Positions 24,634 to 46,352 of a stretch of DNA of 64,000 nt are shown here, in pieces (position 1 is the first letter of the stretch; each line of letters opens with the position of its first letter). Position numbers and translations under genes: made by a program. The stretch lies in the NCBI RefSeq assembly GCF_027257155.1, contig NZ_JAPWDU010000003.1:434001-498000 (forward strand), read 5' to 3'. The notes below the pieces were generated by a model that ran no database searches, was not told the DNA's origin, and saw only the letters and a list, made by a program, of their open reading frames with translations. The DNA comes from Cerasicoccus sp. TK19100. GTDB lineage: Bacteria; Verrucomicrobiota; Verrucomicrobiia; Opitutales; Cerasicoccaceae.

Positions 24634-27144
24634 TTAGCCGGTGATGGCGTCAAGGGACCAGATCTCCTTGGCGTATTGGTGGATGGTGCGGTCGCTGGAG
24701 AACTTGCCGACGCAGGCGGTGTTCATGATCGCCATCTTGGCCCACTTCTTTTGGTCGCGGAAGGCTTCGTCGACTTTCTTTTGGGTGTCGATGAAGGCCT
24801 GGTAGTCTGCGCAAACCAGGAAGGGGTCGCCGCCGTCGAGCAGGCTCTTGCGGGTCGCCGCCAGTGCATTGGGATCGCCGGGGGTGAAGTAATCCGAGGC
24901 GAGCCAATCGAGCGCGGACTTCAGCTTGTCGTTACTGTTGTAGTAATTGTAGCTGTTGTAGCCGCTAGCGCGCAGGCGGTCGACTTCTTCCACCGTCAGG
25001 CCGAAGATGAAGATGTTGTCATCGCCGACTTCCTCACCGATTTCCACGTTGGCACCGTCGAGCGTGCCGATGGTCAGCGCGCCGTTCAGGGCGAGCTTCA
25101 TGTTGCCAGTGCCGGAGGCTTCCTTACCGGCAGTGGAGATTTGCTCGGACAAGTCGGCAGCCGGGATGATTTTCTCGGCCAGCGACACGCGGTAGTTCGG
25201 CAGGAAGACGACCTTCAGCTTGTCGCCGACGCGCTCGTCGTTGTTGATCTTTTCGGCGACCTTGTTGATCGCAAAAATGATCTCCTTGGCCAGGACGTAG
25301 CCCGGGGCGGCCTTGGCACCGAAGAGGATGACGCGTGGCACGAAATCGCCTTCCGGATTGTCCAGGATTTCCCGGTAGCGCGTCAGGATGTGCAAGAGCT
25401 GCAGGTGCTGGCGCTTGTATTCGTGGAGACGCTTGATCTGGATGTCGAACAGGGCGTCGGGGCTGACCTTAATGCCGCAGTCCTTCTCGATGATCTCGGC
25501 GAGGACGACTTTGTTGTCCCGCTTGATCTTCATGAATTTCTCTTGGAACTTCGAGTCGTCGGCGTACTTGGTGAGGCCCTGGAGCTTGTCGAGGTCAGTC
25601 GGCCAGTCGTCGCCGATGGTGTCGTCGATCAGTTCGGAGAGCTCCGGGTTGCAGGCCTTCAGGAAGCGGCGCGGCGTGATGCCGTTGGTCTTGTTCTGAA
25701 TCTTGCCGGGATACAGGTTGTCGAAGCTGTTGAAGAGGTGCTGCTTGAGCAGCTCGGTGTGGAGCGCGGCGACGCCGTTGACCGTGTGGCTGCCGATGAC
25801 GGCCAGGTAGGCCATGCGGATCATCTTGGGCGTGCCTTCCTCGATGATGGAGAGCTCCATCTTCTTGCGGCCATTGCCCGGCCACTTGGCCTCGACTTCC
25901 TCTTCCAGGAAGCGGCGGTTGATCTCGTAAATGATCTGTAGATGGCGCGGCAGGACCTTCTCAAATAGCGGCACGGACCACTTCTCGAGCGCTTCGGGCA
26001 GGAGGGTGTGGTTGGTGTAGGCGAAGCAGGCGCGGCAGATGCCCCAGGCTTCATCCCAGTCGATGCCTTCCTCGTCGATCAGGATGCGCATCAGCTCGGG
26101 GACGGCCACGGCGGGGTGGGTGTCGTTGAGCTGGATGGCGGCCTTCTTCGGGAAGTCTTGCCAGTCGCTGTTCTTCTTTTTGAAGCGGCGGATGATGTCA
26201 TGCAGCGAGCAGGTGACGAAGAAATACTGCTGCACCAGGCGCAGCTCCTTGCCGGACTCGGTGGCGTCATTCGGGTAAAGCACCTTGCTGATGGTTTCGC
26301 TGATCGCCTTTTCGCGAACCGCCTCGGTGTAGCCGCCGCGGTTAAAGGCTTCCAGGTCGAACTCGGTCGAGGCCTTGGATTCCCACAGGCGCAGGAAGTT
26401 GACCGTCTGCGCGCCGTAGCCGACGATCGGGATATCCCACGGCACACCGATGATTTCTTTGGCGCCGACCCAGGCCGGGGCCCAGTCACCGCTGCCGTTG
26501 GCCTTGTATTCGACGTGGCCGTAAATCGGCACCTTCACCTGGTATTCCGGGCGGACGATGTGCCACGGGTTGCCGTGCTGCAGCCAGTTGTCCGGGCGCT
26601 CGTTCTGGCGACCGTTGACGAACTCCTGGCGAAAGAGGCCAAACTCGTAGTGGATGCCATAGCCGACTGCCGGGTAGTCCAGCGTGGCGAGGGAGTCCAG
26701 GAAGCACGCGGCGAGGCGGCCGAGGCCACCGTTGCCCAGGCCCATATCGACCTCGGCATCGCTGATGTCGCGCAGGTCCATGCCGAGCTCCTTGAGGGCC
26801 TTTTCCGCGATATCGAACATCCCGCAATTGACGAGGTTGTTCTCCATCAGGCGGCCCATCAGATACTCCAGGGACAGGTAATAGACGCGGCGCACATTGT
26901 TACTGTTGTGCACGCCCTGCGTGGCGATGTAGCGCTCGAGAATGCGGTCGTTGAGCGCGTGGCACGTGGCCAGCCACCAGTCGCGCGGTGTGGCGGTCTC
27001 GGTGTCGCGCGCCAGCTCGTGAACGAGGTTTTCCTCGATCCGCTTCTTGAACTTTTCCACCGTGGTATCGATGGCGAAAGTGGACTTAGACGCAGTTGCT
27101 TTGGCGGCCTTCTTGGTCGCCTTTTTCTTTTTGGTAGCGGGCAT
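24634..27144 (-). CDS. glgP: Glycogen/starch phosphorylase
   Basis: The enzyme releases glucose 1-phosphate from glycogen or maltodextrin using pyridoxal phosphate. The 836-residue protein shows the N-terminal [11 protein letters not shown] and [15 protein letters not shown] blocks, [14 protein letters not shown], and the PLP signature [14 protein letters not shown] with the Schiff-base Lys at about residue 683. The first 20 residues are a Lys/Ala-rich extension ([18 protein letters not shown]), rare in the family and possibly a nucleic-acid or polymer contact. The gene is single, with its own terminator, and no glgB or glgX is next to it. Confidence 0.97.
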
Positions 27145-27256: not shown

Positions 27257-28126
27257 TTACATCGACCCACCCGGCAGTGGCGGCGGTGTCTTCTTTTGGG
27301 GGCGACACAAGCCGAACAGAATAAACGCCAGCAGCGCCAGGACGCCCAGTGGAATTCCCGCTCCGAGGGCTAGGTTTCTTGAGATATTTGGCGAAACGGG
27401 GACAGTGCTGGGCGAGGCCTTGTCGAGGATCATGATGGGGGAGGTGATGAGGGCGATGTCGACCATGGCTTGATTGTAATTGCCCGCCATGTCCACATAT
27501 AGATCATAGTTCACTTTGTAGTCGGCCTGGTAGATTGGATCATCCATGGCGTTCTCCCGCAGCATTTCTTCACGTATTTCCACTACCTTACCCATCCGAT
27601 GCTCAGCGCGGTTTCTGAGATCTTCGATGTAGCGAATTCTCATATCTAACGCGGTTCGCACGTAATAGTTGATGGTCTCGTCGGCGAAGTAGTTAGCGAC
27701 TTTCGCGGCAATGATGCGATCCGAGTGCTGGTAGGCAACAAATAGCACGTTGGTTTCGGGGTCGATGTAGGCCTCGCGGTGAGAATCCAATACTTCCTCC
27801 AAGGTCATTGGGCCGGACATTTTTATCTCTTCTTTGTAAGCGGCCATCAGGGTTTGTCGGTCCTCTTCCTTGATGCGATTCGCGACTTGGTTGAGCAGCG
27901 AATCACTCCGAATGACACCGAGCACGTCCTCAATGGCGATGTCGTCCTTGATCACCAGTGGGTTCATGTACTTCGGGCTCATGACAACGCTCGCCCTCGA
28001 CTCGTAGATCGGCGAAACATTAAACGTGTAGAGCAGCGTCAACGTAAACACCGGCACGACGGCGGCTACAGCCAGCGCGATGATGACGATTTTCCAAGTG
28101 GAGCCTTTGCGGGATTTTGGATTCAT
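27257..28126 (-). CDS. Wzz-like chain-length determinant domain protein without kinase
   Basis: The 289-residue protein has two membrane helices (about residues 12-33 and 252-272) around a periplasmic Wzz-like domain, with the typical MILDKASPSTVPVSP before the second helix. It ends in a short Pro-rich tail (KKTPPPLPGGSM). The stretch VANYFADETINYYV...IEDLRNRAEHR closely matches the tyrosine kinase at 41599-43917, so it is a paralogue that has lost, or never had, the ATPase domain and most of the coiled coil. It stands away from the export cluster and could pair with another kinase or set chain length. Confidence 0.85.
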   Translation of the reverse strand: MNPKSRKGSTWKIVIIALAVAAVVPVFTLTLLYTFNVSPIYESRASVVMSPKYMNPLVIKDDIAIEDVLGVIRSDSLLNQVANRIKEEDRQTLMAAYKEEIKMSGPMTLEEVLDSHREAYIDPETNVLFVAYQHSDRIIAAKVANYFADETINYYVRTALDMRIRYIEDLRNRAEHRMGKVVEIREEMLRENAMDDPIYQADYKVNYDLYVDMAGNYNQAMVDIALITSPIMILDKASPSTVPVSPNISRNLALGAGIPLGVLALLAFILFGLCRPQKKTPPPLPGGSM

Positions 28127-37632: not shown

Positions 37633-39276
37633 CTAGCCAGCCTGCTCGGTCGGATTGAGCACGCCGTTGAGCTCGATGAGGAGATTTTCCCGGTCTGGCG
37701 TGAAGATGAAGCGGTCGCTACCCAGCTTTTCGTAGGCCTGCTGGAGAATGTCGGCCGACGGGCGGCGCATTTGGAGCAGCTTTTTAAGGTAGTTCCCGAG
37801 TTCGGCGGCGTTGCCGGTTTTGATCTCGATTTCGATCAGGTTGGACAGCGCAGCTTGGTTCTTGGGATTGTTCTCGTAGGCCTGCTTGAGCACGCGACGG
37901 GAAAATTCATCGCCTCCCAGCTGGGAGAAGCGGCGGGAAACCGCCATGAGCGATTCGGCGCGCAGGTTGGGCTCCTGCAAGAACTGGTCGACATAGATTT
38001 CAGCCAGGTTCATGTTGCCGACGCCGTAGTAAGCCACGGAGCGAAGGCTGTTGAAAATTGGCAGGTTGCTTTCCAGCCAGTCTGGGCGCTCCTTGGCGAG
38101 CTCTTCGCTAAAGCTGATGGCACCTTCGAAATCACCCGCAGTGATGTGAGACTCGATCAGCAGGAGTGCGAAGGGCGCGATGGGGAAGTCATTTTCGAGC
38201 GCTTGCTCGTAGATGCGGCGGGCGAGGTCGATTTGGCCTTCGTCGGTGGCGTAATTGGCCAATTTGAGCATGGCCTTCTCATCGTTGCGGAATTGGCGCA
38301 GGATGGCGTCGGCCTCGGCTTGGGCGCGTTCATCCTGGTCGGTCAGGCTGAGCGTGTAAAGCAGGTCGACGCGGGGCGAGACGGCCAACGGGGCATCGAT
38401 GTTGCGCAAAACGGCATACTGGCGGGCTTTTTCATACTCCTCCAGGTCGCGATAATACTGGCTAAGCTGCGCGTAGAGTGGCTCGTTGGTCTTGTATTTG
38501 CCGATGCTGTTTTCCAGCTTGTCGATGGCAGTGCGCTGGGCACCGCGTTCCCAGGAAATCTTTGCGGAGAGCAGCAGGCCTTCCAAGCCGGTTTCCAGCT
38601 CATACTCTTTCACGAAGTCTTCGGCCTCATCAAAATTGCCCCGATAGAGGTGAGCGGTAGCTGCTGCAGTGGAGAGCAGTGTGGTCACGTCTTCGTTGTT
38701 GGTGTCGGCGAGAATCTCCTCGGAAAGGCTAATGACTTCCTCGTCCTCCTGCTGGCTGATCAGTAGCTGAACGTAGCGCTTGAGGTAAGCCGGGTTATCA
38801 TGGGCGTAGGGCACGCCTTCACGTAAGAGGTCGAGCGCGCGGTCGATATCGCGCAGATTGGGGATGTAGAGGAAGTATTCGCTAACCAGGAGGCGACCCT
38901 CGAGGTTGGTGGGGGATCGCTGCACGCCCTCGCGCAGGAATTTAAAGGCATCACGGTAATTGCCCTCTTCGAGCATCTCCTTGGCCATTTCAATCTGGTA
39001 GTCGCCGACTTTGGCGCGGTGTTCATCCATGTGAAGCCAGATGGTAAACATGTCCGCGTATTGCACGTCTTCGAATTTTTGCACTTTCTTAAAGAACACA
39101 AACAACGCGGTCGCTAAGCCAATATAGCCCACGATGGCCAAGCCCGCAAAGACGCCAAGTATGCGCCCCCAGCGAAAATGAATATGCCAACGGCCACTGG
39201 GCCCCCGCTTCCGGACCGCGAAGCCAAGCAAAACGCTTCTTTGCTGGTTTTGAGACGATGGGGAGGCCTTTTTCAT
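37633..39276 (-). CDS. Membrane-anchored TPR-like protein
   Basis: The 547-residue protein has a basic cytoplasmic N-terminus (about 35 residues), one membrane helix (residues 38-62, ILGVFAGLAIVGYIGLATALFVFF) and then many helix-turn-helix pairs of TPR type throughout. Examples are YRDAFKFLREGVQRSP, YEKARQYAVLRNIDAP and LARRIYEQALENDFP. It is probably a periplasmic scaffold. It lies divergently from the export cluster with a 281-base gap between starts, so a role in polysaccharide export is possible but not shown. Confidence 0.85.
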   Translation of the reverse strand: MKKASPSSQNQQRSVLLGFAVRKRGPSGRWHIHFRWGRILGVFAGLAIVGYIGLATALFVFFKKVQKFEDVQYADMFTIWLHMDEHRAKVGDYQIEMAKEMLEEGNYRDAFKFLREGVQRSPTNLEGRLLVSEYFLYIPNLRDIDRALDLLREGVPYAHDNPAYLKRYVQLLISQQEDEEVISLSEEILADTNNEDVTTLLSTAAATAHLYRGNFDEAEDFVKEYELETGLEGLLLSAKISWERGAQRTAIDKLENSIGKYKTNEPLYAQLSQYYRDLEEYEKARQYAVLRNIDAPLAVSPRVDLLYTLSLTDQDERAQAEADAILRQFRNDEKAMLKLANYATDEGQIDLARRIYEQALENDFPIAPFALLLIESHITAGDFEGAISFSEELAKERPDWLESNLPIFNSLRSVAYYGVGNMNLAEIYVDQFLQEPNLRAESLMAVSRRFSQLGGDEFSRRVLKQAYENNPKNQAALSNLIEIEIKTGNAAELGNYLKKLLQMRRPSADILQQAYEKLGSDRFIFTPDRENLLIELNGVLNPTEQAG

Positions 39277-39557: not shown

Positions 39558-40853
39558 ATGAAATCCTTTACCCAAAAATCTCTAATTGCTGCTTCGATTC
39601 TCGGTGCCGGCGCAGCTCTTAATGCTGCCCCTCTCGTATCGATCGGCGACTCCGTTGACATTTTCTTCAACGGTAGCACCAATGTTCAATGGCGATCCAA
39701 CCTTTTCTACGCTGACGGTATCGAGGGCACGACCCCTCCCACAGCCTTGGCTCCCGCCGGTGTCACTATCAATCGCCCTAAGGAATCTGCTTTCGTCTTC
39801 TACGTATCGCCGGGTTTGGAAATCCAGATTGGCCGTAACAGTAATGCCAACGTTACCATCTATTTCCGTGAGGACTTCTTGTTCTACTCGAAGTATAGCA
39901 GCCAACTGAATACGGAACTGGCGAACCTCTACGTCGATGGCGTTTACGACTGGGGCAACCTGAGCACCTCTGCTGGCTTCTCCTTCGTCCAGTCACAGCA
40001 GAACACGCCAACCACTTCCGGCGGCGTTTTTCAAGCAGATCTGGTTGAAACTAACAACTACAATGCCTACATCGATGCTGACTACGACATCTCTCCGAAG
40101 GCATGGTTGAGTGGAGGCTTTAACTGGACTCGTAGGGACTATACCAACAATCAGAATTTTGGTAACCGCTACTCGGACGTTGATTACTATCAAGCTCCGA
40201 TCACTTTCTTCTGGCGTGTCACACCGAAGCTCAGCGTTGGTCCTAGTTTCCGTTATCGCTACACCGATCCGAGCAGCACGCCGACCACTATCCCTGCTGA
40301 TTACAATGATTATTTCTTCAACGTTGCAGTCAAGGGTGAGGTTATGCCCAAGCTGAATGTTGGGCTTAACGTTGGTTACCAGCTCCGCGATCCCAATCGT
40401 GATCGCATCAATCGGGTTACCAACACGGCGATCTCTCAGGACACCCGCGGTCAGTTCAGCATCATTGGTGATGTCGAATACGAAATCACTCCGAAACTAC
40501 TTGGTTACGCCTCGCTTTACAATGAGTTTGGCGTCGGTGCAGAGGGTCAAACCACCACGGACCTCGGCGGTGACATCGGTGCGATCTATCAATTCAACAG
40601 CTACATTTCTGCAGTCGCAGAATTCGGAATGGAAAACTCGGAGTATCAAAATTCCAATGGTCGTGAAGATCTCACCACCACTGCTGACTTCTCCATCAAT
40701 TATACACCCAATGCATATTGGCAGCTGAGCGCAGGTTACTATTACATCAACAACAACTCTGATGGTAACTTCAACCCGATCATAGGCTCAGACAATACGG
40801 GTGCTAGCTTTAATTCTCATACGGTGAATTTACAGGCGACCTTCCGCTATTAA
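39558..40853 (+). CDS. Outer-membrane beta-barrel protein (putative porin-like)
   Basis: The 431-residue protein has a signal peptide (residues 1-23, ending LNA) and a long run of alternating beta-strands ending in the typical C-terminal aromatic (VNLQATFRY). Repeated strand-turn units such as ANVTIYFREDFLFYSKYSS and GVYDWGNLSTSAGFSFVQ suggest a barrel of at least 16 strands. It resembles the putative beta-barrel porin 2 group found in front of export genes in verrucomicrobia. It precedes the Wza-like and kinase genes, so it may be the outer-membrane part of that system. A terminator follows. Confidence 0.85.
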   Translation: MKSFTQKSLIAASILGAGAALNAAPLVSIGDSVDIFFNGSTNVQWRSNLFYADGIEGTTPPTALAPAGVTINRPKESAFVFYVSPGLEIQIGRNSNANVTIYFREDFLFYSKYSSQLNTELANLYVDGVYDWGNLSTSAGFSFVQSQQNTPTTSGGVFQADLVETNNYNAYIDADYDISPKAWLSGGFNWTRRDYTNNQNFGNRYSDVDYYQAPITFFWRVTPKLSVGPSFRYRYTDPSSTPTTIPADYNDYFFNVAVKGEVMPKLNVGLNVGYQLRDPNRDRINRVTNTAISQDTRGQFSIIGDVEYEITPKLLGYASLYNEFGVGAEGQTTTDLGGDIGAIYQFNSYISAVAEFGMENSEYQNSNGREDLTTTADFSINYTPNAYWQLSAGYYYINNNSDGNFNPIIGSDNTGASFNSHTVNLQATFRY

Positions 40854-40886
40854 GGGAGGCATTCTCAAAGTTCATTTGAACAATTC

Positions 40887-40930
40887 CGGGAAAGGAAGGT
40901 CTATTGAAGTGCCTTCCTTTCCTCTTTTTA
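40887..40930 (+). terminator. Rho-independent terminator after the beta-barrel gene
   Basis: GGAAAGGAAGG (40889-40899) and CCTTCCTTTCC (40912-40922) form a perfect 11-bp stem with a 12-base loop, then TCTTTTTA. It ends 18 bases before the next start codon, so the downstream genes depend on readthrough or on a promoter within this small gap. Confidence 0.88.
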
Positions 40931-40947
40931 CCAAACCAGTTTTCACC

Positions 40948-41553
40948 ATGAACCGTTTTACCTGTCTTTGTTTTTTGGCTATAACATGCTTTTTCGCGAC
41001 CTTTGCTCAGGCACAAAACACTGCTGAAGCGAAGAACCGCGGGCTCATTGGTTCGAATTACACGTTGCAGCCGTTGGATATCGTCCAGATGACGGTTTAC
41101 AAAGAGCCGGAGTTAGAGCAGCAGGTTCGTGTTAGTCAGGAAGGCACAGTGATATTACCCTTGGTCGGAGAAGTGCAGGTGGGCGGTATGACCATTACCA
41201 ATGCAACTCGATTGATCACTGATTTGTACAATCGAGATTATTTGGTGAATCCTCAGGTGACTCTTCTTCTCATATCCTACACCGAGCGCCGAGCTTATGT
41301 GCATGGACAAGTGAACCGACCCGGTCCGGTCATTATTCCACCTGAAGAAACAATGACGCTTTCACAGGTCATTAGTGCCGCAGGTAGCACTACACGTCTA
41401 GCCAGTGACACCATTCGCGTTACAAGGACAGAATCTAACGGTAAGAAGACCGTTTATGAACTGGAGTTCGATGAGATTCTGGAAGATCCAGACGCCAAAG
41501 ATATCATTATTATGGATGGCGATTCTATTTATGTGCCAGAGCGCATCATCTAG
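40948..41553 (+). CDS. Polysaccharide export protein (Wza/KpsD-like)
   Basis: The 201-residue protein has a signal peptide (FLAITCFFATFAQA), the poly-export domain (NYTLQPLDIVQMTVYKEPEL, near residues 38-58, with SQEGTVILPLVGEVQVGG) and one SLBB domain (RRAYVHGQVNRPGPVIIPPE, TLSQVISAAGSTTRLASD). It lacks the C-terminal helix that closes the outer-membrane ring in E. coli Wza, as many short family members do. There is no lipobox Cys at the expected position. With the following tyrosine autokinase it forms the core of a Wzx/Wzy-type or exosortase-type export system. Confidence 0.93.
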   Translation: MNRFTCLCFLAITCFFATFAQAQNTAEAKNRGLIGSNYTLQPLDIVQMTVYKEPELEQQVRVSQEGTVILPLVGEVQVGGMTITNATRLITDLYNRDYLVNPQVTLLLISYTERRAYVHGQVNRPGPVIIPPEETMTLSQVISAAGSTTRLASDTIRVTRTESNGKKTVYELEFDEILEDPDAKDIIIMDGDSIYVPERII

Positions 41554-41598: not shown

Positions 41599-43917
41599 AT
41601 GAGCGACGACGATAAGCGTAACGTTTCAAATGAGTCTGCCGGAAGTTACGGCGGTTATCAGGGGTATGGTTCCTATGGAAACTACGGCGGTGGCTACTAT
41701 TATGGTTATGGCTATAATTACGGTGGCTACGGCGGTAATGAACAAGGTCCTTCGCGTTCGATCAAAGATTATCTGGTTATTCTGCGTGAGCGTATCTGGT
41801 ATCTTGTTGTCACGTTTTTTATTATTTTTACCGCTACGTTGCTCTATACGTTCAACGTAACAGAGGAATATGTGTCGACCGCCACTATCCAAGTGTTGCG
41901 CGATGATCCAAAGATTCTTCAAGATGACATGGATGTCTTGGATAACTCAATTCGTGGGATTGAAGACTTTCAGACTCAAGTTAGCATTTTGCAGAGTGGC
42001 TCGCTAATTAGTGCGGTAGCAGATCGCATTAAGGATGAAGATCGTGCGATCTTCATGGCACCTTACAAGGACCAGTTTAGCCTTTCGGGACCGCTATCAC
42101 TAGAAGAGGTTCTAGCAAAAAACTTGTCTATAAGTCCGTTACGCATGACGTGGATTGTTGCAGTCTCATACATGCACCCGGATGCATCCATGGCTGCGAA
42201 GGTAGCTAATTACTTTGCGGATGAATACATAAATTATAATGTTAAACTTAACATTGAAACCTCGATGCGTGCGGTGGAAGATTTGCGCAATCGGGCAGAG
42301 CATCAACGACAAAAAGTCGAGGAGATACGTGAGGAGATCAATGAGTATCGTAAAAGGTTTAAACGGCTAGGATTTTCTCCTGAGGAAAATGCTGGGTTTG
42401 AAGCCCAGGAGTTGCTTTCTCTCAAAGCTGCAGTGATCGAAGATCAGCGAATGCTTTCAATGGCTGAGCGTCATTGGACATTGGTTCAAGAGTATCAGGA
42501 ATCTGGCAGACCATTATGGGACATTCCTTTTATTTCTGACATGCCGAGAATATCGGAACTCCTTTCCCAGCAATCACAACAGAACATCACGGTTGCCTCA
42601 TTGAAGAAGCGTTACCGCGATAAGCACCCTAGCATGATAGAGGCTGTGCGCGCTGTGGAAGAGACCACGAAGGAATTGGATAAGGCTGTGGCCTCGGCGA
42701 TTGAGAAAACGCGCATTTCTTATGAACAGGCCAAGAAGCAATTTGAAACAGCTAGCAATCGCTTGGCGGAAAAAGAGCTGGATATGATGGATCTTGGCGA
42801 AATCGCTGTGAAATACAACTCGATGACTGATGAGCTCGAAGTTAATAACTCGCTTTACCAAGCGATGATGGCCCGCTACCAAACCGAAATGGCGCAAGTG
42901 GCTTTGGTTACTGCTAATGCCCGCATTATCGATAAGGCTGCACCCTCCAGTAAGCCGGCCAAGCCCAAAATCTTTCTCAATCTGGTGATCGGGGTTTTCG
43001 GGGGCATCGTCTGCGGTGCTAGCCTCGTGTTCCTCATCGCAATCCTGGACGACCGGATTAAGAGCGCCTACGACATTGAGAACGCCGTTGGACTGCCGTT
43101 GATTGGCATTATTCCTCGCATCAAGCGCCTAAACTCTCCGGAAAAAGCACAAGCCGTGGCCTCCAATGCTGAGCGTCGGGTCACTGAGGCATTCCGGGCT
43201 ATTCACTCAGCGCTGAAGTTGAATGAGGCCAGTAAGAAGGCGAAGATTATTCTAACCACTTCGACTTCACCGTCCGAAGGTAAGTCCTTTGTGTCGACGA
43301 ACTTGGCCATCACATTTGCGATCCATGGTGAGCGCACGCTGATTTTGGATGGTGACTTGCGCATGCCGAATGTGGCCAAGTCGATGAATCTTGAGGATCG
43401 CACGGATGGCGTCGTGAAATATTTTGCCGGTGAGTGCTCACTGGATGACGCGATCATCACGGAGCTTTATCCCAACCTTGACGTATTACCTGCCGGCACC
43501 AAGGCAAAGAATCCCACGCAGATTCTTAACAGCCCGGACTTCGAGGCCCTGCTTGCCACTTTGAGTGAGCGTTATGACCGTATCTTCATCGATACGCCGC
43601 CGATCGCGGTGGTCAGTGACGTGCTTACGGTTCTGCCATTCGCTGACGGCATCATTTACGTCATCAAGTTTAATGCGGTTAAGCGCAAGACTGCCAAGTC
43701 GAACCTGCGCCGCATCATTGAGTCCAACACTCCAGTCTTTGGCGCGATCCTTAACCAGATCAGTGTCAACGTGGCCTCTTACTATTACGCCAATTATTAC
43801 GACAAGTCGTATGCTGGCTATTATGGCCATGATGAAGACGGTGATTCGTTGGACGTGCCGATCAAGCGAACCAGCAAGGCGCGATCTGAGGACGGGCAAG
43901 CGCTTCCCCGCAGTTAA
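41599..43917 (+). CDS. Polysaccharide co-polymerase with tyrosine autokinase domain (Wzc-like)
   Basis: The 772-residue protein begins with an unusual Tyr/Gly-rich region (about residues 12-50) before the first membrane helix near residue 70. A Wzz domain with coiled coil, the second membrane helix near residue 465, and a BY-kinase domain follow. The kinase has Walker A TSTSPSEGKSFVSTNLA (about 555-570), Walker A' LDGDLRMPN and Walker B IFIDTPP. A C-terminal tyrosine cluster (SYYYANYY, then YAGYYG) is the expected autophosphorylation site. It follows the Wza-like gene by 45 bases. The extra N-terminal tyrosines on the cytoplasmic side might also be targets. Confidence 0.95.
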   Translation: MSDDDKRNVSNESAGSYGGYQGYGSYGNYGGGYYYGYGYNYGGYGGNEQGPSRSIKDYLVILRERIWYLVVTFFIIFTATLLYTFNVTEEYVSTATIQVLRDDPKILQDDMDVLDNSIRGIEDFQTQVSILQSGSLISAVADRIKDEDRAIFMAPYKDQFSLSGPLSLEEVLAKNLSISPLRMTWIVAVSYMHPDASMAAKVANYFADEYINYNVKLNIETSMRAVEDLRNRAEHQRQKVEEIREEINEYRKRFKRLGFSPEENAGFEAQELLSLKAAVIEDQRMLSMAERHWTLVQEYQESGRPLWDIPFISDMPRISELLSQQSQQNITVASLKKRYRDKHPSMIEAVRAVEETTKELDKAVASAIEKTRISYEQAKKQFETASNRLAEKELDMMDLGEIAVKYNSMTDELEVNNSLYQAMMARYQTEMAQVALVTANARIIDKAAPSSKPAKPKIFLNLVIGVFGGIVCGASLVFLIAILDDRIKSAYDIENAVGLPLIGIIPRIKRLNSPEKAQAVASNAERRVTEAFRAIHSALKLNEASKKAKIILTTSTSPSEGKSFVSTNLAITFAIHGERTLILDGDLRMPNVAKSMNLEDRTDGVVKYFAGECSLDDAIITELYPNLDVLPAGTKAKNPTQILNSPDFEALLATLSERYDRIFIDTPPIAVVSDVLTVLPFADGIIYVIKFNAVKRKTAKSNLRRIIESNTPVFGAILNQISVNVASYYYANYYDKSYAGYYGHDEDGDSLDVPIKRTSKARSEDGQALPRS

Positions 43918-45407: not shown

Positions 45408-46352
45408 ATGATGAAACTACTGTCTAAATCTAACCACGTATTATTGGGTAAATTAATCAGCGCATTGCCGCTGTTGGTTGTGGTGGCACCGTTGCACGGT
45501 GTGGTCTACTCTTATTCGCTGAATACATCGGGTGCGGGTTGGCTCGATCAGCATAGCTTGCCGGTTATTGGAGACGAGGCCTGCGTGCCCACTTCAGCGA
45601 CAAACGCCATGACCTACCTGCAAAGCGTGGCACCCGGTTATTTGGGGACTTCGCTGACGGGAAGTAGTTACACGGATTGGACCAACGCCGCGCTAACGGT
45701 GGCTGGCCCTAATTATTTAAACACTTCGGCGAGTGACGGCACCGACCTTGATTATCTTCCGCAAGCGATAGATAAGTATATTCGCCAGGACAATGGCTTC
45801 ACTGGTGTGCAATTGAGCGGCGTGTTGCCATCTGATATCTGGGTAGACTCACCATTTACGAAACCCAGCTACATTACCGATGGGGTGCCGTTGGCTAGCT
45901 ACTTTCTAGACGCTATCATGAATGGCGCGGCAACGATGTTTTCCATTCAATACACGGATGCGCAAGGTGGTGGCGGCCATGAGCTTTTCGCGACAGGCAT
46001 CGATTGGAATGACGCCAACAACGACGGCATCGCTCAGGAGTCCGAGAGTGCGATGCTTCACTTTATCGATCCACTGGATCCGGCATTATATGATGGCAGC
46101 GGTTCTCCCTCTTCCGGCCCGAGGATCACCAGTGGCAGCTTTCACTATGACGAAACGGATGAGGTGCTGCGATTCTCCTACTCCCAGTATACGGGCGGGC
46201 TTCCCTATGATGGCAGCGAATATGGTGATGTGATCGATAGCTACATCGTTGGTGCCTTCACCATGCAGGTGCCGGAACCGAGCGATTACGCGATCATCGC
46301 TGGCGCGCTTGCTTTGGCCGGCGCGATGATTCGCCGCCGAATGCAGGCTTAG
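45408..46352 (+). CDS. PEP-CTERM protein with possible C39-like cysteine-peptidase features
   Basis: The 314-residue protein has a signal peptide (residues 1-31) and a C-terminal PEP-CTERM signal (VPEPSDYAIIAGALALAG followed by RRR), which marks exosortase substrates in exopolysaccharide producers. The mature start holds DEACVPTSATNAMTYLQ, resembling the catalytic Cys motif of papain-like C39 peptidases. GGHELFATGIDWND about 120 residues later could supply the His and Asp. This reading is only partial evidence: the spacing and general look fit, but no family search was possible. It might equally be an adhesin or an inactive relative. Confidence 0.8.
   Translation: MMKLLSKSNHVLLGKLISALPLLVVVAPLHGVVYSYSLNTSGAGWLDQHSLPVIGDEACVPTSATNAMTYLQSVAPGYLGTSLTGSSYTDWTNAALTVAGPNYLNTSASDGTDLDYLPQAIDKYIRQDNGFTGVQLSGVLPSDIWVDSPFTKPSYITDGVPLASYFLDAIMNGAATMFSIQYTDAQGGGGHELFATGIDWNDANNDGIAQESESAMLHFIDPLDPALYDGSGSPSSGPRITSGSFHYDETDEVLRFSYSQYTGGLPYDGSEYGDVIDSYIVGAFTMQVPEPSDYAIIAGALALAGAMIRRRMQA

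Follow-up and report, generated by a model that had tools for sequence, protein, structure and literature searches.

The Wzc-type BY-kinase encoded in a 64,000-nucleotide stretch of the Cerasicoccus sp. TK19100 genome (contig NZ_JAPWDU010000003.1, positions 434,001 to 498,000; hereafter the window) has a disordered N-terminal tail, rich in glycine and tyrosine, ahead of its first membrane helix. A tyrosine-rich tail was found in every one of the 69 orthologues that we tabulated from the order Opitutales, and comparison with congeners indicates that the peptide itself is under constraint. We suggest, tentatively and with our opinion nearly evenly divided, that the tail may be a second, N-terminal tyrosine-rich acceptor region of this putative co-polymerase and kinase.

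The kinase gene and its N-terminal tail

Assignment of the window protein to the Wzc-type BY-kinases is well supported by sequence and by predicted fold; kinase activity and an octameric state are putative. The protein scores 152.2 bits against the NCBIfam model for polysaccharide biosynthesis tyrosine autokinases (TIGR01007, cut-off 108.05) and falls below the cut-offs for the exopolysaccharide transport protein family (TIGR01005, 175.4 against 411.7 bits) and the XrtA-associated tyrosine autokinases (TIGR03018, 113.1 against 230.65 bits). The Pfam Wzz domain, above its cut-off, covers residues 55-142 and is followed by the C-terminal P-loop kinase part, and the Wzz and GNVR regions lie between two transmembrane helices that the model places at residues 66-86 and 458-483. 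Among solved structures, CapAB and the E. coli K30 Wzc are closest in sequence, and the top fold match is Wzc 7nhr. The AlphaFold2 model was made from an alignment of 63 sequences and has a pTM of 0.43, so its overall arrangement is uncertain. Walker A, A' and B patterns are matched by the window kinase and by all 69 orthologues. The gene is present in the named close relatives Cerasicoccus frondis, C. maritimus and C. arenae, whose kinases are 83-88% identical to that of the window.

The kinase probably governs the export of a slime polysaccharide. A Wza-like gene lies beside the kinase in all 46 orthologous loci with flanking sequence (about 1.5 kb), and an outer-membrane barrel-like gene is found in 39 of them. 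A TPR protein gene on the minus strand (37633-39276), divergently transcribed, adjoins the export cluster in all seven named loci. Also near the cluster, the gene at 45408-46352 (plus strand) encodes a protein with the C-terminal sequence VPEPSDYAIIAGALALAGAMIRRRMQA, which we take to be a PEP-CTERM-like tail.

Nucleotides 41599-41760 encode residues 1-54 of the kinase (MSDDDKRNVSNESAGSYGGYQGYGSYGNYGGGYYYGYGYNYGGYGGNEQGPSRS). The pLDDT of the AlphaFold2 model is below 50 across residues 1-52, which are followed by helices at residues 55-64 and 66-86. Lysine and arginine are scarce in the tail. In 2000 shuffles of the kinase, the best 31-residue stretch never exceeded 13 glycines plus tyrosines (26 observed) or 10 tyrosines (12 observed), and the runner-up stretch of this length in the window, among stop-to-stop frames of at least 100 amino acids, scores 14 with no tyrosine at all. 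The initial annotation had described a Tyr/Gly-rich N-terminus of about 38 residues; the enrichment is real, lying beyond all of the shuffles, and its extent is corrected here to about 52 disordered residues, including a GY-rich part of about 31. The C-terminal tyrosine cluster that it reported on the same kinase is indeed present, with tyrosines that are near-invariant in 63 sequences. Its placement of both tyrosine sets on the same side of the membrane fits the two transmembrane helices, the position of the kinase after the second of these, and the Wzc structures as described in the cited passages of PMC8285477. In the TK19100 genome, one pattern search and one 31-residue search turned up no other protein that carries a tail of this kind.

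Table 1. Positions in the window of the kinase gene, its parts and related genes
Feature	Position	Strand	Basis
Kinase-less Wzz/GNVR-like paralogue, 289 aa, without GY tail	27257..28126	-	46% identical to the kinase over residues 76-247
Outer-membrane beta-barrel-like gene, upstream	39558..40853	+	OMP_b-brl, below its cut-off
Wza-like polysaccharide export gene, directly upstream of the kinase	40876..41553	+	Poly_export above cut-off, SLBB_2
Wzc-type BY-kinase gene, 772 aa, ATG 41599	41599..43917	+	Pfam Wzz, GNVR, AAA_31; TIGR01007; sequence and fold matches
Disordered N-terminal tail, residues 1-52, presumed cytosolic	41599..41754	+	AlphaFold2 pLDDT; orthologue tables
Gly/Tyr core, residues 16-46	41644..41736	+	12 Tyr and 14 Gly in 31 residues; kept in orthologues
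Helix preceding the first transmembrane helix (RSIKDYLVILRER), likely counterpart of Wzc alpha1	41755..41793	+	Helix 55-64 in model; R63, E64 invariant
First transmembrane helix, residues 66-86	41794..41856	+	Helix in AlphaFold2 model
GNVR domain, residues 409-479	42823..43035	+	Pfam, above cut-off
Walker A (SPSEGKS)	43267..43287	+	Pattern match
Walker A' (LILDGDLR)	43339..43362	+	Pattern match
Walker B (FIDTPP)	43585..43602	+	Pattern match
C-terminal Tyr cluster YYYANYYDKSYAGYY	43780..43824	+	Y729, Y738, Y741, Y742 nearly invariant (63 sequences)

Constraint on the tail and its distribution

The initial annotation had itself named a start downstream of the region as an objection. The tail would be an artefact of annotation if the true start lay at or after the helix of residues 55-64, and by eye there is no clear ribosome-binding site upstream of the ATG at 41599. 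The frame is open through the tail, the start candidates ahead of it (ATG, GTG or TTG) being TTG 41593 and ATG 41599, and the ATG is found at the same position in three congeners. The first methionine is invariant in 63 aligned orthologues, which is weak evidence because a script set each start at the first in-frame ATG (five starts, those of L042, L050, L083, L086 and L089, were set by hand). A comparison of four congeners shows silent change in the tail close to saturation (pS 0.68-0.97), whereas pN there is 0.04-0.10; the periplasmic region has a pN of 0.09-0.16 and the kinase region one of 0.03-0.07. Eleven of the 12 tyrosine columns are invariant among these congeners, and the codon differs at 21 of the 25 invariant glycine or tyrosine columns. 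Low pN combined with changed codons at invariant columns indicates that the peptide has been kept and not a DNA repeat. We therefore reject a downstream start, which this peptide-level constraint, together with the tails of all 69 orthologues, makes extremely improbable. The variation in tail length, from 28 to 92 residues, might suggest instead a functionless low-complexity expansion by repeat slippage. This is contradicted by the mixed codons, by the silent changes and by the low pN, and also by the occurrence of tails in all tabulated orthologues and in a second clade, and we regard a neutral origin of this kind as very improbable.

Our searches covered 88 genomes of the order, 69 of which gave a match of some kind, and 288 of the phylum, 249 of them with a match, and a wide gap in score separated orthologues from paralogues. 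The tails of the 69 tabulated orthologues, which represent 16 families of the order, have 4-17 tyrosines (median 8), and a 70th orthologue (L180, genome G167) has a weak tail with three tyrosines ahead of helix alpha1. None of the 11 scored paralogues of the order is tailed, each having 0 or 1 tyrosine at that place. The paralogues are the 14 matches of at most 350 bits, of which L003, L073 and L074 lack an anchor and were left unscored; no GY tail is visible in these three. The initial annotation had suggested comparing the N-termini of verrucomicrobial homologues, with lack of conservation as an argument against its proposal, and in that comparison the region proved to be conserved. Orthologue rows left out of the table were L062 (genome G071, gene in two frames), L090 (a duplicate of L038) and that of G045 (match cut by a contig end). 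The L062 kinase gene (G071:C6:285949-289005) is split over two frames, and its genome is small, at 1.7 Mb. Between families, residue order and tail length change freely and composition is kept. R63 and E64 in the helix that follows are invariant in the alignment of 63 orthologues, and the columns of Tyr 39 and Tyr 44 are at least 90% conserved in 63 sequences, with the caution that this part of the alignment is a low-complexity stretch.

No GY tail was found in nine kinase-less Wzz-like loci, one of which is the window paralogue at 27257-28126, which begins MNPKSRKGSTWK directly ahead of its membrane helix. About five of the nine have a comparable N-terminus, because some are parts of longer unrelated proteins. 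The window paralogue adjoins the gene at 24634-27144, whose product presumably resembles glycogen phosphorylase. In L076 (C6:364800-368200 of the TK19100 genome) and L246 (genome G003), a segment 42-43% identical to the Wzz region of the kinase lies within a long ORF that we take to be YfbK/von Willebrand-like and whose remainder has no evident connection with polysaccharide export, an apparent reuse of the Wzz segment.

A scan of 103 genomes of the order for GYGxYxxYG found the pattern at 31 places, spread over 19 genomes. Nine of these loci were read and the others placed by coordinates; 26 places fall in the N-terminal tail of the orthologous kinase, one in the C-terminal cluster of the paralogue L234, and four elsewhere in sequence that is not GY-rich. 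Raw counts of the pattern prove nothing on their own, because a reversed control pattern also scored 0-4 per genome, and the pattern is strict, only 15 of the 103 genomes showing it in a BY-kinase. With 27 of the 31 places in BY-kinases, a general fashion for GY-rich sequence in genomes of the order is unsupported.

Elsewhere in the phylum, four of 71 BY-kinases among the matches listed are tailed (L106, L107, L113 and L171), and all four belong to one distinct family (FAM2, L183-L212). The denominator derives from 80 loci read as lying outside the order, of which four proved to belong to it, three were unparsed (L130, L147, L148) and two had a miscalled transmembrane helix (L162, L182). Among the best 30 matches to one tailed query from this second clade, four lacked a usable first transmembrane helix, and 25 of the other 26 have at least four tyrosines, counted up to that helix. 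In a FastTree phylogeny of 175 kinases with the tails removed, the 68 order sequences formed one clade and the 26 second-clade sequences another, each with a support of 1.0. Fourteen untailed kinases of the order were sister to the order clade, nearer to it than the second clade. Two gains of the tail, or one gain and one loss, would explain this tree equally well. The second clade resembles the order kinases in its tyrosine-rich tail before the first transmembrane helix and in its kind of kinase, but many of its tails contain YYGG or SPxYYG rather than GYG. A GY-rich N-terminal tail was absent from five kinases of other phyla, taken from six plasmid regions chosen from 40 of the 783 records listed.

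Residue choice in the tail and in the C-terminal cluster

The tail cores of the 69 orthologues, from first to last tyrosine, contain 593 tyrosines, three phenylalanines and no tryptophan, and the whole tails contain 11 phenylalanines. Tyrosine and phenylalanine make up 3.6% and 3.5%, respectively, of the remainder of these proteins. The cores also hold asparagine (110), serine (93) and aspartate (36), each of which, like phenylalanine, is one base change from tyrosine. The scarcity of phenylalanine is consistent with a need for the hydroxyl group, as in phosphorylation. Tyrosine-rich sticker domains of the FUS type also typically lack phenylalanine. The stretch behind the kinase domain has a bias like that of the tail, with 521 tyrosines and 11 phenylalanines in 67 proteins of the order. 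In fixed 35-residue windows for the C-terminal clusters, which extend into the kinase domain, the corresponding counts are 522:55 in the order, 175:38 in the second clade and 580:6 in the other kinases of the phylum, a weaker bias in the first two groups than in the third.

The tail cores of the order are 33.5% tyrosine and about 40% glycine, as compared with 6-11% glycine in the C-terminal clusters, and their tyrosines are mostly 2-4 residues apart. YxY is present in 64 of the 69 tails and occurs 164 times, against 149.2 expected (sd 8.7), a count reached by 104 of 2000 shuffles. The excess is at best marginal, and YxY as a selected unit is unsupported. YxxY is over-represented (179 against 144 in shuffles) and YY under-represented (60 against 154), and the second clade shows the reverse pattern for these motifs. 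YGY is found in one of 67 C-terminal clusters of the order and in 6 of 17 from paralogues; the remaining two sets give 4 of 69 and 5 of 28. Four of the five kinases from other phyla have it within their final 40 residues, and it is also seen near the C-terminus of the paralogues L002 (of the TK19100 genome), L070 and L234. In the BY-kinase paralogue L234 (G048:C14, minus strand), the C-terminal tyrosine cluster is itself GY-rich (YGNYGYGQYGGYGYGYNYKYTY).

The numbers of tyrosines in the N- and C-terminal tails are uncorrelated in the 60 of 69 order proteins compared (Spearman 0.05), so that the order shows no trade-off between them. In family f44 of the second clade (L201, L204, L207, L209, L212), the C-terminal tail has 3-4 tyrosines and the N-terminal tail 10-14, suggesting at most that the acceptor role may have been handed over from one to the other. 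Judged by the commonest residues at its position, the residue aligned with E675 of Wzc, an acid of the tyrosine pocket, is non-acidic in these kinases, tailed or untailed; since it is missing from the untailed kinases of the phylum too, we have dropped it as support.

Possible roles of the tail

The window kinase shares with E. coli K30 Wzc (PDB 7nhr) the Wzz periplasmic part, two transmembrane helices, the Walker A, A' and B motifs, a C-terminal tyrosine cluster and a helix before the first transmembrane helix. The cytosolic N-terminus of K30 Wzc is short, alpha1 beginning at Ile17, and no tyrosine is mentioned there in the cited passages, whereas the window kinase has about 52 further residues with 12 tyrosines in their core. 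In K30 Wzc, according to the same passages, alpha1 (Ile17-Arg30) packs on the helix leading into the C-terminal tyrosine tail, and stepwise phosphorylation alters this contact and displaces both alpha1 and the membrane helix, until the octamer comes apart (PMC8285477, PMC11986026). The tyrosines phosphorylated in K30 Wzc, as located in those passages (PMC8285477, PMC11986026), lie in a stretch that reads HYGYSYY in our alignment, so sequence of the YGY type is already known as a site of BY-kinase action. In Lactobacillus rhamnosus, Wzd, the partner of the BY-kinase Wze, is phosphorylated on tyrosine by its kinase (PMC4340800), and thus a membrane co-polymerase part is modified, as we propose for the window kinase. 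Unlike the window kinase, Wzd and Wze are two separate proteins, and the cited passages of PMC4340800 mention no GY-rich tail.

Attached as it is to the likely equivalent of alpha1, the tail would bring a dozen additional tyrosines into each chain, at the point where the Wzc relay receives its input. It would lie in the cytosol next to the ring of kinase domains, where an octamer with 12 core tyrosines per chain would gain 96 tyrosines, and neighbouring kinase domains may phosphorylate some of them. Since the attached helix matches the one through which phosphorylation is relayed to the membrane in E. coli, the added charge would be expected to shift the stability of the octamer, and hence chain growth or export. 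The tail would then be a second input to the known cycle of assembly and disassembly, undone by a low-molecular-weight phosphatase.

An acceptor role agrees with the presence of the tail in all 69 orthologues, each with the three Walker motifs, and its absence from the scored paralogues and the kinase-less relatives. It also agrees with a tyrosine bias shared with the stretch behind the kinase domain, with constraint on the peptide despite near-saturated silent change, with YGY as a BY-kinase site that recurs in C-termini of other phyla and of some paralogues, with the Wzd precedent, and with four LMW-PTP matches above the cut-off in the TK19100 genome. A tyrosine-specific role is favoured by three points: phenylalanine is almost wholly excluded, none of nine kinase-less relatives has the tail, and the tail is attached to an alpha1-like helix. 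The proposal of the initial annotation, that the region might serve in phosphorylation or self-association, is thus partly supported. Against an acceptor role, the YxY ratchet motif is at best marginally enriched with YxxY in excess and YY avoided, the glycine content is far above that of the C-terminal clusters and YGY is nearly absent from those of the order, the tyrosine numbers of the two tails are uncorrelated, the E675 equivalent is non-acidic, and phenylalanine is typically excluded from FUS-type stickers as well.

The marginal YxY, the glycine-rich core and the uncorrelated tyrosine numbers fit a chain of spaced stickers about as well, which makes self-association the main rival, and a serious one. 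The tail would then be a FUS-like G/S-Y-G/S sticker that gathers octamers, or octamers and partner enzymes, into membrane clusters with no need for phosphorylation. Like the FUS and EWS low-complexity domains, which have tyrosine without phenylalanine, the tail combines this composition with predicted disorder, and its spacing, its avoidance of YY and its variable length at constant composition suit such a chain. FUS and EWS are eukaryotic nucleic-acid-binding proteins and not membrane kinases; the likeness is one of composition and we claim no homology. Tyrosine contributes to phase separation of the FUS low-complexity domain, as the cited passages report (PMC5927716). A general sticker need not track kinases, and yet the pattern places lie overwhelmingly in BY-kinases with the others not GY-rich, the kinase-less relatives have no tail, and the searches of the TK19100 genome found no second such protein, so that we consider self-association on its own rather unlikely. 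The tail could also be a docking lure that binds a cytosolic partner (a flippase, glycosyltransferase or phosphatase) or the surface of the kinase itself, with the tyrosines as contacts. Its order-wide retention in a gene adjoining a Wza-like gene, and the conserved columns of Tyr 39 and Tyr 44, subject to the caution above, would agree with docking; the free turnover of length and residue order between families fits multivalent chemistry better than a single docking motif, and we judge docking improbable. Phosphorylation and self-association might also be combined, which we think unlikely. The kinase would write phosphotyrosine on its own FUS-like tail, with unphosphorylated tails gluing octamers into membrane condensates and autophosphorylation dissolving them, a clustering switch under the control of the kinase, which one phylum would have gained or retained in two of its BY-kinase clades.

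Judged by titles and the beginnings of abstracts, the open-licence literature yielded no report of a Tyr/Gly-rich N-terminal tail on a BY-kinase, and the cited passages of PMC8285477 and PMC11986026 describe regulation of these kinases through the C-terminal tyrosine tail. If the acceptor role is correct, polysaccharide assembly would gain a further point of control: a second tyrosine tail, retained across the order and borne by the very helix through which the phosphorylation signal passes to the membrane. These bacteria would then offer a simple case of a kinase whose substrate is its own low-complexity tail.
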